Positions 22,471 to 25,312 of a DNA stretch of 64,000 bases are shown one piece after another. Numbering within the stretch: position 1 is the first letter of the stretch; each line of letters begins with the position of its first letter. A program made the translations under genes and the position numbers. The notes under the pieces are model-generated. The model was not told where the DNA came from and ran no database searches. It saw only the letters and a list, made by a program, of their open reading frames with translations. The stretch comes from Streptomyces sp. WAC 01529 (GTDB lineage: Bacteria; Actinomycetota; Actinomycetes; Streptomycetales; Streptomycetaceae): the NCBI RefSeq assembly GCF_003945545.1, contig NZ_CP029617.1:1217001-1281000 (forward strand). Reading direction: 5' to 3'.

Positions 22471-23877
22471 ATGGATCTCGGCGTGCGCTGGAAACTGCAC
22501 GGCGACGGCCGCACCCCCGCCCCCGGCGCGGTCGTCCGGCCCGATGAGCGCCTCTCGTGGCCGCGGACCTTCGGGCTCGGCGCGCAGCACGTGGTGGCCA
22601 TGTTCGGGGCGTCCTTCGTGGCGCCCGTGCTGATGGGTCTCGACCCGAATCTCGCCATCATGATGTCGGGCGTGGCGACCGTCATCTTCCTGCTCGCCAC
22701 GCGCGGCCGGGTGCCCAGCTATCTCGGCTGCTCGCTCTCGTTCGTGGGGGTCGCCGCCGTCATCCGGGCGCAGGGCGGCTCCAGCGCGACGGTGACCGGC
22801 GCGGTCTTCGTGGTCGGCGCCGCGCTGTTCCTGGTGGGGCTCGCGGTGCAGAAGTTCGGGGCACGGATCATCCACGCCGCGATGCCGCCGATCGTGACCG
22901 GCGCGGTCGTCATGCTGATCGGCTTCAACCTGGCGCCGGTGACCGCGTCGACGTACTGGCCGCAGGACCAGTGGACGGCCCTGCTGGTGATGCTCTTCAC
23001 CGGCCTCGCCGTGGTGTGTCTGCGCGGCTTCTGGTCGCGCATCGCGATCTTCCTCGGGCTGATCTTCGGGTACGCCATCTCCTGGCTCCTCGACCAGGTC
23101 TTCGGCAAGATCCACTCCGCGGACGGCTCCGGCAAGGTCGTCGACCACTGGCGGCTCGACTTCTCCGCCGTCGGCAACGCCGACTGGATCGGTCTGCCCT
23201 CCTTCCACGCCCCGAGCTTCGAGTGGTCGGCGATCCTTGTGGCGCTGCCCGTCGTCATCGCCCTGGTCGCGGAGAACGCGGGCCACGTCAAGGCGGTCGG
23301 CGAGATGACCGGCGACAACCTCGACGACAAGCTCGGCACGGCGATCTCCGCCGACGGCGCCGCGTCCATGCTCTCCACCGCGGTCGGCGGCCCGCCCAAC
23401 ACGACGTACTCCGAGAACATCGGCGTGATGGCGGCCACCCGCGTCTACTCCACGGCCGCGTACTGGGCGGCGGCCGCCTTCGCGCTGCTCTTCGGCCTGT
23501 GCCCCAAGTTCGGCGCGGTCGTCGCGGCGATCCCGGGCGGCGTGCTCGGCGGCATCACCGTCATCCTGTACGGCATGATCGGCCTGCTCGGCGCGCAGAT
23601 CTGGATCAACGCCAAGGTCGACCTGCGCAATCCGCTGAACCTGGTCCCGGCCGCCGCGGGCATCATCATCGGCGTCGGCGGCGTCTCGCTGAAGATCACC
23701 GACAACTTCGAGCTGAGCGGCATCGCGCTCGGCACGATCGTCGTCATCACGGGCTACCACGTGCTGCGCGCGTTCGCCCCGCCGCACCTCAAGTCCCAGG
23801 AACCGCTGCTGGATTCGGGCACGTCGACGTACGACGAGAAGGGCGAGAAGGGCAGCGACAGCGACAGCGCCCGGTAA
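22471..23877 (+). CDS. NCS2 uracil/xanthine permease
   Basis: 468 residues. About 12-14 helices. Family marks: Gly-Leu-Gly-Ala-Gln-His-Val-Val-Ala-Met-Phe near residue 35, Ala-Glu-Asn-Ala-Gly-His near 270 and Gly-Gly-Pro-Pro-Asn-Thr-Thr-Tyr-Ser-Glu-Asn near 310, the last two forming the substrate site of UraA-type carriers. It imports a nucleobase, probably uracil, with protons. The acidic Ser/Asp/Lys tail is cytoplasmic. It lies 85 bases after the MFS gene and may have its own promoter. Uracil import would complement the pyr operon elsewhere in the window. Confidence 0.9.
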   Translation: MDLGVRWKLHGDGRTPAPGAVVRPDERLSWPRTFGLGAQHVVAMFGASFVAPVLMGLDPNLAIMMSGVATVIFLLATRGRVPSYLGCSLSFVGVAAVIRAQGGSSATVTGAVFVVGAALFLVGLAVQKFGARIIHAAMPPIVTGAVVMLIGFNLAPVTASTYWPQDQWTALLVMLFTGLAVVCLRGFWSRIAIFLGLIFGYAISWLLDQVFGKIHSADGSGKVVDHWRLDFSAVGNADWIGLPSFHAPSFEWSAILVALPVVIALVAENAGHVKAVGEMTGDNLDDKLGTAISADGAASMLSTAVGGPPNTTYSENIGVMAATRVYSTAAYWAAAAFALLFGLCPKFGAVVAAIPGGVLGGITVILYGMIGLLGAQIWINAKVDLRNPLNLVPAAAGIIIGVGGVSLKITDNFELSGIALGTIVVITGYHVLRAFAPPHLKSQEPLLDSGTSTYDEKGEKGSDSDSAR

Positions 23878-23882
23878 TCCGG

Positions 23883-23912
23883 TGGACGTGGTGCGCACCG
23901 GCTGGCTAGCGT
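23883..23912 (+). promoter_or_regulatory. leaderless promoter of the exporter leader
   Basis: TGGACG, 18-base spacer, TAGCGT. The -10 ends 7 bases before the leader ATG, putting transcription start at that ATG. The palindrome GTGCGCAC occurs at 23892-23899 and 23911-23918, flanking the -10, so the promoter may also be an operator. Confidence 0.6.
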
Positions 23913-23919
23913 GCGCACC

Positions 23920-23988
23920 ATGTCAAGCCCCGAGTCCGACAGACTCCGGCCACCGGTCGTCCGGTGGCTTCCCGCGCCCTCGCACTGA
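23920..23988 (+). CDS. leader peptide upstream of the drug exporter
   Basis: 22 codons starting at the predicted transcription start, with no ribosome-binding site: a leaderless mini-gene. The product ends Trp-Leu-Pro-Ala-Pro-Ser-His. Codons 10-17 span a perfect hairpin. Bases 23943-23948 (ACTCCG) are complementary to CGGAGT at 24095-24100, the ribosome-binding region of the exporter. Translational attenuation by a leader peptide is described for cmrA/cmlR-type chloramphenicol exporters in actinobacteria; here it is inferred from layout. Confidence 0.5.
   Translation: MSSPESDRLRPPVVRWLPAPSH
23949..23968 (+). promoter_or_regulatory. hairpin inside the leader ORF
   Basis: GCCACCGG, loop tcgt, CCGGTGGC: 8-bp perfect stem with a tetraloop. 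A ribosome moving or stalled in the leader would melt it and free or block the flanking ACTCCG. Confidence 0.6.
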
Positions 23989-24106
23989 CGCTTCCGCCGC
24001 TTTCGCGCGGCCGTCACGCGCGCCGTCGGCGCTCTCGCAGAGCCCCCGGATCACCGCTCCCGTGTCCTGATCGTTTCGATCCACACCGTGGTTGCGGAGT
24101 TTCGCT

Positions 24107-25312
24107 GTGCCCTTTGCCCTCTACCTCCTCGGACTCGCCGTCTTCGCGCAAGGCACCTCCGAGTTCATGCTCTCCGGCCTGGTGCCGGACATCGCCCGGG
24201 ACCTGGACGTCTCCATCCCGTCCGCGGGCCATCTGACCTCGGCGTTCGCCGTGGGAATGGTCGTCGGCGCGCCGCTGATGGCCCTCGTGAGCCGGCGCTT
24301 CTCGCGCCGGAGCGCGCTGCTGGTCTTCCTGGTCGCCTTCCTGCTGGTCCACCTCGTCGGCGCGCTCACCACGAGCTTCGCCGTGCTGCTCGCCACGCGC
24401 GTCGTGGGCGCCCTCGCCAACGCCGGGTTCCTCGCGGTCGCCCTGGTGACCGCCGCGAGCATGGTCGAGCCGAACGCCAAGGGGCGCGCCACGTCGACGC
24501 TGCTCGGCGGCGTGACCCTCGCCTGTGTCGCGGGGGTGCCCGCGGGCGCGCTGCTCGGCGAGGTGTGGGGCTGGCGCTCGGCGTTCTGGGCCGTGGCCCT
24601 GCTCTCCGCGCCCGCCGTCCTCGCCCTCGCGCGGGCCGTACCGGCCGGGGCGCCGGACGCCGCTGGAACGGACCTCGCCGGACCGGGCGCGCTCGGTGAA
24701 CTGCGTGCGCTGCGCGGTCCCCGGCTCCTGCTGACCCTGCTGCTCGGGGCGCTGGTGAACGGCGCGACCTTCTGTACGTTCACCTACCTCGCGCCCCTGG
24801 TCACCGAGGTCACCGGGCTCGGCCCGGGCCGGGTGCCGGTGGTGCTCGCGCTCTTCGGCATCGGCTCGTTCGTCGGCGTCAGCGTGGGCGGGCGCCTCTC
24901 GGACGGGCGGCCCGTGCCGCTCCTGGTCTGCGGCACGCTCGCGTTGCTGGCCGGCTGGGTCCTCCTCGCGGTGACCGCCGCGCACCCGGTGGCCGCGGTC
25001 GTCCTGGTCCTGGTCCAGGGCGCGCTGTCCTTCGGCGTCGGCTCCACGCTGATCTCGCAGGCCCTCTACGCGGCGACCGACGCGCCCCGCCTGGCGGGCG
25101 GCTTCGCCACGGCCGCCTTCAACGTGGGCGGCGCGTTCGGCCCCTGGGCCGGTGGCCTCGCGATCTCCGCGGGGCTCGGCTACCGCTCGCCGCTGTGGGT
25201 CAGCGCGCTGCTCGTGGCGCTGGCCCTGGCCGTCGGCGGCACGGCGCTCGTCCCGCGGCGCGGGCGGCGCGCGGCCGGGTCCCTCGTTTCGGGGAAGCTG
25301 CCGGTGCGCTGA
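24107..25312 (+). CDS. Cmx/CmrA-type chloramphenicol efflux MFS transporter
   Basis: 401 residues from the GTG at 24107, 7 bases after CGGAG. The N-terminus Pro-Phe-Ala-Leu-Tyr-Leu-Leu-Gly-Leu-Ala-Val-Phe-Ala-Gln-Gly-Thr-Ser-Glu-Phe is the hallmark of Cmx/CmrA/CmlR exporters. Twelve helices; DHA1-type loop Ser-Arg-Arg-Phe-Ser-Arg-Arg after helix 2. It would pump chloramphenicol or a related amphipathic compound out with proton exchange. Many members with this N-terminus are untested, so drug specificity is an inference. The preceding leader ORF and hairpin support antibiotic-inducible expression. Confidence 0.8.
   Translation: MPFALYLLGLAVFAQGTSEFMLSGLVPDIARDLDVSIPSAGHLTSAFAVGMVVGAPLMALVSRRFSRRSALLVFLVAFLLVHLVGALTTSFAVLLATRVVGALANAGFLAVALVTAASMVEPNAKGRATSTLLGGVTLACVAGVPAGALLGEVWGWRSAFWAVALLSAPAVLALARAVPAGAPDAAGTDLAGPGALGELRALRGPRLLLTLLLGALVNGATFCTFTYLAPLVTEVTGLGPGRVPVVLALFGIGSFVGVSVGGRLSDGRPVPLLVCGTLALLAGWVLLAVTAAHPVAAVVLVLVQGALSFGVGSTLISQALYAATDAPRLAGGFATAAFNVGGAFGPWAGGLAISAGLGYRSPLWVSALLVALALAVGGTALVPRRGRRAAGSLVSGKLPVR

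Follow-up and report, generated by a model that had tools for sequence, protein, structure and literature searches.

What does an open reading frame of 22 codons, containing a perfect hairpin, do in front of a chloramphenicol exporter gene? The window analysed here (a stretch of 64,000 nucleotides from Streptomyces sp. WAC 01529) contains such an arrangement, whose elements are collected in Table 1. A sequence-only reading of the window had identified the downstream gene as a Cmx-type exporter, and the protein indeed scores well above the cut-off of the corresponding family (NCBIfam NF033135; 529.8 bits versus a cut-off of 400). The locus shares with chloramphenicol attenuators a short conserved leader ORF directly 5′ of a chloramphenicol resistance gene. 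An Rfam search of positions 23700–24400 returned three matches, all below their gathering scores, and thus no known riboswitch or leader family. The genome encodes three proteins above the Cmx cut-off, the window's exporter among them, and a profile of the leader (described below) matches only at the window. The two other proteins (L002 and L003) share 46–47% identity with the window exporter, and their genes are not preceded by such a leader.

Table 1. Features of the leader region and its neighbours, in window coordinates.
Feature	Position	Strand	Remarks
WblC/WhiB7-type motif GTAATC	23874–23879	+	3 bases 5′ of the −35; 5 of 6 positions of GAAAWY (PMC7157823)
NCS2 permease gene	stop at 23877		upstream neighbour
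−35 TGGACG	23883–23888	+	fits TKGMNN; TGG conserved here
Twin GTGCGCAC palindromes	23891–23898, 23911–23918
−10 TAGCGT	23907–23912	+	18-nt spacer; seven bases before the ATG; predicts start on the ATG
Leader ORF MSSPESDRLRPPVVRWLPAPSH	23920–23988	+	22 codons and TGA; ATG at 23920; leaderless by prediction
Predicted stall site	23935–23943	+	codon 6 Ser penultimate, codon 7 Asp in P site, codon 8 Arg AGA in A site
Arg8 codon AGA of the window leader	23941–23943
ACTCCG	23943–23948	+	can pair with CGGAGT 24095–24100 (exporter ribosome-binding site)
Segment 1, leader hairpin 5′ arm	23948–23956	+	folding; covariation in relatives
Segment 2, leader hairpin 3′ arm	23961–23970	+	predicted partner of segment 3 when the leader is covered
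Segment 3	24040–24062	+	contains the CCGGATCACCG block, replaced in close relatives by CCACCGGATCACCG, which repeats the hairpin 5′ arm
Segment 4, exporter ribosome-binding region	24087–24106	+	GGAG 24096–24099; read directly and by folding
Cmx/CmrA family chloramphenicol efflux MFS transporter	24107–25312	+	GTG start

Comparison with other genomes identifies the window ORF as a member of a conserved leader family with the consensus M-x-S-P-E-[S/A]. In a DNA search of 60 other Streptomyces genomes, the leader block alone matches 5′ of the exporter in 13 (hand count; 73–90% identity), and this match, which covers the ORF start and the hairpin, is separate from the exporter match. In these alignments the leader is kept where the surrounding sequence is not conserved. 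A sequence-only profile built from 20 such leaders matched 163 of 295 Streptomyces genomes (E ≤ 0.001), as well as 62 of 394 genomes and 22 of 137 genera in a class-wide sample. Many of the weak class-wide matches are probably due to chance, and 13 genera are left at E ≤ 1e-6 (hand count). Loci were retrieved from among the profile matches listed, the total number of matches being at least as large. The resulting 175 loci were reduced to 164 with a leader-profile match, then to 148 distinct leaders by merging repeats and dropping L158, which has no recognisable start codon, and finally to 138 transcripts by removing 10 that lack a usable exporter start. An exporter gene follows on the same strand in 142 of the 148 distinct leaders, and the 11 loci with an exporter-like gene only 44–50% identical show no leader match. 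Six leader-like sequences have no exporter match behind them (L086, L088, L140, L158, L167 and L169) and the exporter gene of L037 is cut short; all seven look like remnants.

This first set was found by a profile built from such leaders; a second set was chosen from named genomes by the exporter protein alone (the best 80 of at least 558). A search for the leader pattern.x[SCTA]P[EK][SAT] within 520 bases 5′ of these 80 Cmx/CmrA exporters finds it in 75, compared with 23 of 4,000 shuffled upstream sequences and a single case when the opposite strands of the 80 are searched (shuffles in this test, as in the promoter-score, accessibility, duplex, overlap and block-enrichment tests below, kept base composition only). 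Four of the five misses (L216, L255, L260 and L261) carry a one-residue variant recognisable by eye, and no leader variant is apparent by eye in the 300 bases inspected for the fifth, L232. By record titles, leaders of the exporter-selected set come from 20 genera, with Saccharopolyspora included through a variant; genera with the leader include Streptomyces, Nonomuraea, Streptosporangium, Microtetraspora, Amycolatopsis, Actinomadura, Rhodococcus and Micromonospora. Leaving out L232 and L243, this set provides 78 transcripts.

The leader is also present on some resistance plasmids. Among the 8 inspected records of 40 listed in a plasmid collection, Corynebacterium striatum plasmid pTP10 carries MSSPESDRSGVVGHTASPLNH 169 bases 5′ of cmx, and further leaders are found in records of Glutamicibacter, Microbacterium, Micrococcus, Rhodococcus fascians and Streptomyces clavuligerus, as well as in an 11.9 Mb Nonomuraea record that is filed as a plasmid. 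A Rhodococcus cmrA gene (L205) is preceded by a near-copy of the leader, MSSPKASRL, with Lys in place of Glu5. Lys is likewise residue 5 in two Rhodococcus genome contigs (L245 and L246).

Codon usage within the leader reveals which part of it is under constraint. In 137 leaders (L079 was left out of the codon tables), Pro4 and Glu5 are invariant and their codons variable. Residue 6 is Ser in 97 leaders and Ala in the other 40, residue 7 mainly Asp (93) or Ser (38), and codon 8 encodes Arg (107), Lys (11), Glu (10) or Thr (9). Over codons 2–6 the entropy is 1.07 at third positions, 0.38 at first and 0.16 at second positions, a pattern of third-position variability that is absent from codons 7–10. 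As judged from these alignments, selection is on the first eight codons of the leader, and the conserved sensor is about eight residues long. The sequence-only reading had named a non-conserved leader frame as the result that would tell against it; the entropy values and the recovery of the leader ahead of most exporters chosen by protein alone indicate, on the contrary, that the frame is conserved.

Merging both sets yields 209 distinct leaders (5 shared leaders counted once, L240 left out), a number that, like all comparative counts given here, is inflated by the relatedness of the sequences. Pro4 is found in all 209 and Glu5 in 205 (Lys in 3, Asp in 1); codon 6 is Ala in 105 and Ser in 104 and nothing else, the pattern used for the exporter-selected leaders having demanded S, A or T at this codon. 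The peptide is much less constrained towards its end: 77 of the 209 leaders stop after nine codons, nearly always with a TAG immediately 5′ of the hairpin, and the C terminus is not conserved. The suggestion that Ala and Ser near the end of the peptide favour stalling has consequently been abandoned, the conserved Ser or Ala being residue 6. According to PMC8987054, chloramphenicol arrest is strongest with Ala as the penultimate residue, followed by Ser and Thr, and PMC10192921 describes a counteracting effect of nearby Gly. By the rule taken from these two sources, the family offers an arrest-favouring residue (A/S/T) without neighbouring Gly, since none of the 209 leaders has Gly at codon 7 or 8. 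With Ser or Ala at residue 6 in the penultimate position, codon 7 would occupy the P site and codon 8 the A site. All 179 leaders with Arg at codon 8 use either AGA (149 leaders) or AGG for it, although AGA makes up 18 of the 4,405 Arg codons (0.4%) of the 209 exporters; in the 30 other leaders, codon 8 is Lys, Glu or Thr. A rare AGA at the predicted A site was unexpected; it might act by slowing the ribosome, or result from a constraint on the RNA. From these features we infer both the position of the stall and chloramphenicol as the inducer.

The promoter proposed by the sequence-only reading, TGGACG-N18-TAGCGT, is present ahead of the 22-codon ORF, and its −10 spacing predicts a leaderless start. 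Its type had to be revised: the two hexamers correspond to a WblC/WhiB7-type promoter and not to a generic sigma-70 promoter, and a scan of positions 23700–24300 with TTGACA/TATAAT found no promoter. In PMC7157823, WblC promoters of Streptomyces coelicolor are described as GAAAWY-N3-TKGMNN-N16-19-TANNNT with transcription starting 7–8 bases after the −10, and the window promoter agrees with 9 of the 10 specified positions. Scores of at least 8 out of 10 are obtained for 132 of 209 upstream regions (0.5% of shuffles), and lower scores for the remaining 77 and for 7 of the 8 plasmid-collection loci, which score from 3 to 9. When the upstream regions are aligned on the −10, positions −32 to −30 form an A tract and positions −24 to −22 read TGG, as in the WblC architecture of PMC7157823. 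Of 212 upstream regions, 209 have a TAnnn[TC] element whose first base lies 12–14 nt 5′ of the start codon; given the published start distance of 7–8 bases, transcription would start on the leader ATG. The transcript would accordingly begin on the leader start codon, and WblC is a putative ligand of the leader promoter, both assignments being derived from sequence. The GTAATC motif of the promoter (23874–23912) shares bases with the stop codon of the permease gene that lies 5′ of it. The twin GTGCGCAC palindromes that had been noticed on either side of the −10 do exist, and add nothing detectable: the window holds 5 against 3.3 expected, a count reached by 23 of 100 shuffles, and we rejected them as a functional element. 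By eye, the second palindrome is kept in the close relatives L035, L075 and L216 and not family-wide.

The perfect 8-bp hairpin that the sequence-only reading had placed within the ORF is confirmed by folding. Positions 23949–23956 pair with 23961–23968 through 8 perfect pairs (9 including a G-U), with a free energy of −18.2 kcal/mol (z value of −3.75), and none of 200 shuffles is as stable. Across 79 leaders the pairs are kept in 98.7% of cells, one of them exchanging between A-U, G-U and G-C, with a covariation score higher than that of any shuffle. The fold of the whole leader region has a z value of only −1.53, and RNAalifold applied to the group of the window (group W) recovers little besides the hairpin.

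Folding calculations predict that this hairpin is part of a switch. In the free window RNA, segments pair as 1:2 and 3:4 at −78.1 kcal/mol, compared with −76.2 kcal/mol for the 2:3 alternative (a difference of 1.9 kcal/mol). When leader nucleotides 1–35 are covered, 2:3 is favoured by 5.5 kcal/mol (−63.3 versus −57.8 kcal/mol), and with nucleotides 1–33 covered by 2.7 kcal/mol (−64.9 versus −62.2 kcal/mol); with nucleotides 1–30 covered, 3:4 is still better by 1.7 kcal/mol (−67.7 versus −66.0 kcal/mol). The window RNA is thus predicted to switch from 1:2 and 3:4 to 2:3 once about 33 or more leader nucleotides are covered (33–38 nt, not 30). A different switch had been envisaged by the sequence-only reading, in which ACTCCG pairs with CGGAGT at the ribosome-binding site of the exporter. 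This pairing is available, and of 53 segments of the window transcript, the 14-nt one containing ACTCCG pairs most strongly with the ribosome-binding region; the corresponding forced fold (1:4), at −76.2 kcal/mol, is weaker than 1:2 with 3:4. A 6-nt complement of the ACTCCG type occurs in 57 of the 138 and 14 of the 78 transcripts (about 7–10% for other 6-mers), and the idea that the ribosome-binding site has no partner other than ACTCCG fails outside some clades.

One measure of a switch of the predicted kind is the overlap between the partner of segment 2 in the covered leader and the partner of the ribosome-binding site in the free RNA. Over 200 transcripts (those longer than 360 or shorter than 110 nt being left out), this overlap has a mean of 1.52, compared with 0.23 for shuffled middles, and it reaches 2 or more in 55 of the 200 (12 of 400 shuffled). 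The signal is unevenly distributed: 36 of 57 transcripts reach this value in group B, 5 of 13 in group A8, 11 of 67 in the exporter-selected set, 2 of 13 in others, 1 of 11 in group W and 0 of 39 in groups C, D, G and T together. The window transcript itself scores 1.88. In the 138 transcripts, covering the leader is predicted to open the ribosome-binding site by a small mean of +0.045 (+0.011 for shuffled middles and for control masks alike); in the window its predicted accessibility falls from 0.369 to 0.248, the covered fold pairing the ribosome-binding site with coding sequence. The leader hairpin pairs less in real transcripts (5.39) than with shuffled middles (6.94), and duplex formation of segments 2 and 4 with the middle is modest (mean z values of −0.69 and −0.53; 138 transcripts). 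In type B (49 of 58 transcripts, those with a leader-to-exporter distance below 200), a helix conserved in 99.5% of cells contains the ribosome-binding site. The 2:3 helix, present in 91.5% of cells, shows a covariation no higher than that of shuffles, 96 of 500 of which attain its score. Blocks resembling the 5′ arm of the hairpin are enriched downstream of the leader: CCACCGGA is found in 10 of 77 middles versus 0.25 expected and CCGGATC in 21 versus 1.45 expected. Seven middles (L226, L233, L242, L252, L255, L258 and L270) have a GCC[AG]CCGGATC block at a distance of more than 140 bases from the exporter; in most of these a CGTACGG stretch comes next, a combination that suggests a second hairpin. 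In several clades, the evidence for the switch is weak or absent.

This uneven distribution bears on whether the stalled ribosome would act on translation or on transcription. A ribosome halted in the leader might prevent premature termination, at a hairpin or by Rho, between leader and exporter, as would suit the distances of up to 400–500 nt that separate the two in some relatives, the fact that groups C, D, G and T show no switch involving the ribosome-binding site, and PMC7157823, in which wblC itself is described under uORF-mediated transcription attenuation. The CCGGATC block, more than 140 nt before the exporter in several genera and hence far from its ribosome-binding site, makes transcription attenuation possible there. 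A scan restricted to the window found no intrinsic terminator (a hairpin followed by a T run) at positions 23700–24300, and the ribosome-binding site, enclosed in a nearly invariant helix in type B and covered by 3:4 in the window, speaks for control of translation. We regard transcription attenuation as unlikely overall.

The identity of the signal can be questioned on similar grounds. Slow decoding of AGA could stall ribosomes under any inhibitor, leaving chloramphenicol without a special role; the strong preference for AGA at Arg8 relative to its scarcity in the exporters, and a WblC-type promoter suggestive of a general response, would both fit such a general sensor of translation stress. 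It leaves unexplained, however, the nearly invariant P-E-[S/A] and those leaders in which codon 8 specifies Lys, Glu or Thr, and the downstream gene encodes a member of a family of chloramphenicol exporters, so that we give this explanation little credence. It is most improbable that the hairpin is a mere terminator of the upstream NCS2 permease gene and the ORF a product of chance. The hairpin does follow the permease stop by only about 70 bases, but it lacks a T run, the leader is constrained at the codon level, and both leader and hairpin recur ahead of the exporter in numerous genomes, as well as in annotated plasmid records whose upstream genes differ.

The proposal of the sequence-only reading, that a ribosome stalled by the drug rearranges the RNA, remains the best explanation of the leader, with the switch as a prediction. 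We consider it probable that the locus is a ribosome-stalling, chloramphenicol-responsive attenuator of the chloramphenicol exporter; our confidence is slightly reduced because the window switch fails with 30 nt covered and group W gives weak signals. The sequences compared display a leader family with coding constraint, a hairpin, a promoter architecture and a link to Cmx exporters, around which the following mechanism can be proposed. RNA from the WblC/WhiB7-type promoter would start on the leader start codon. Without drug, ribosomes would traverse the leader, the 1:2 hairpin would form and 3:4 pairing would hide the exporter ribosome-binding site. Chloramphenicol would halt translation after M-S-S-P-E-S-D, when Ser6 (Ala in roughly half of the relatives) is penultimate in the nascent chain and the A site holds the rare AGA. 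By covering segment 1, the halted ribosome would free segment 2, which could then capture segment 3 and open the exporter ribosome-binding site.

A bolder version, which we put forward tentatively and judge rather less likely to hold than to fail, is that of a widespread drug sensor of Actinomycetes with three gates on one RNA: a WblC promoter responding to ribosome stress, a leaderless nine-codon ORF whose P-E-[S/A] is read by chloramphenicol, and AGA, the rarest Arg codon, placed at the A site so that the drug catches a slow ribosome, the leader travelling with cmx on mobile resistance elements. In either version, a single drug-sensing leader would serve a whole exporter family, in soil actinobacteria as on cmx plasmids, and would bear on how chloramphenicol resistance stays silent until needed. 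The leader is a very short natural candidate for a chloramphenicol arrest peptide on an apparently leaderless mRNA, and the rare codon at its predicted A site would make it possible to ask directly whether drug sensitivity is determined by codon speed.

A description of the M-x-S-P-E-[S/A] leader was not found in the literature searched, in which the word MSSPES has no occurrence, although older papers may contain one. Those on the inducible cmr gene of R. fascians and on the chloramphenicol gene of Streptomyces lividans may mention attenuation. SCO7526 and SCO7662 are presumably chloramphenicol pumps of S. coelicolor. Their gene numbers are absent from the main text of PMC7157823, and the main text of a 2017 study of cmx spread (PMC5467266) contains neither ‘leader' nor ‘attenuat'.

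Several known systems share parts of the arrangement described here. In erm and ARE-ABCF attenuators, which sense macrolides and lincosamides, a drug-stalled ribosome rearranges the RNA, as proposed here, with different drugs and peptides. Leader peptides of S. lividans TK24 (LeuL, TrpL and others) are attenuator ORFs, most of them described as leaderless (PMC8079986); they sense amino acids, and none of the 8 listed there belongs to a drug exporter. Promoters of the WblC/WhiB7 regulon of S. coelicolor have the same architecture and the start distance predicted here (PMC7157823), to which a putative drug-specific leader is added behind a promoter putatively bound by WblC. The closest parallels are the cat, cmlA and fexA translation attenuators, in which a short leader ORF likewise lies 5′ of a chloramphenicol resistance gene. 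The cat-86 and cmlA leaders are similar in size to the nine-codon form common in this family. As in the arrest motif KNAD of the CmlA leader (PMC10192921), an A/S/T-type residue is followed by Asp at the predicted arrest site. By analogy, the leader would work like the cat and cmlA chloramphenicol translation attenuators, from which it differs in its peptide (M-x-S-P-E-[S/A]), its predicted leaderless start without a ribosome-binding site of its own, its WblC-type promoter, the rare AGA at its predicted A site and the actinobacterial Cmx/CmrA exporter that it serves.
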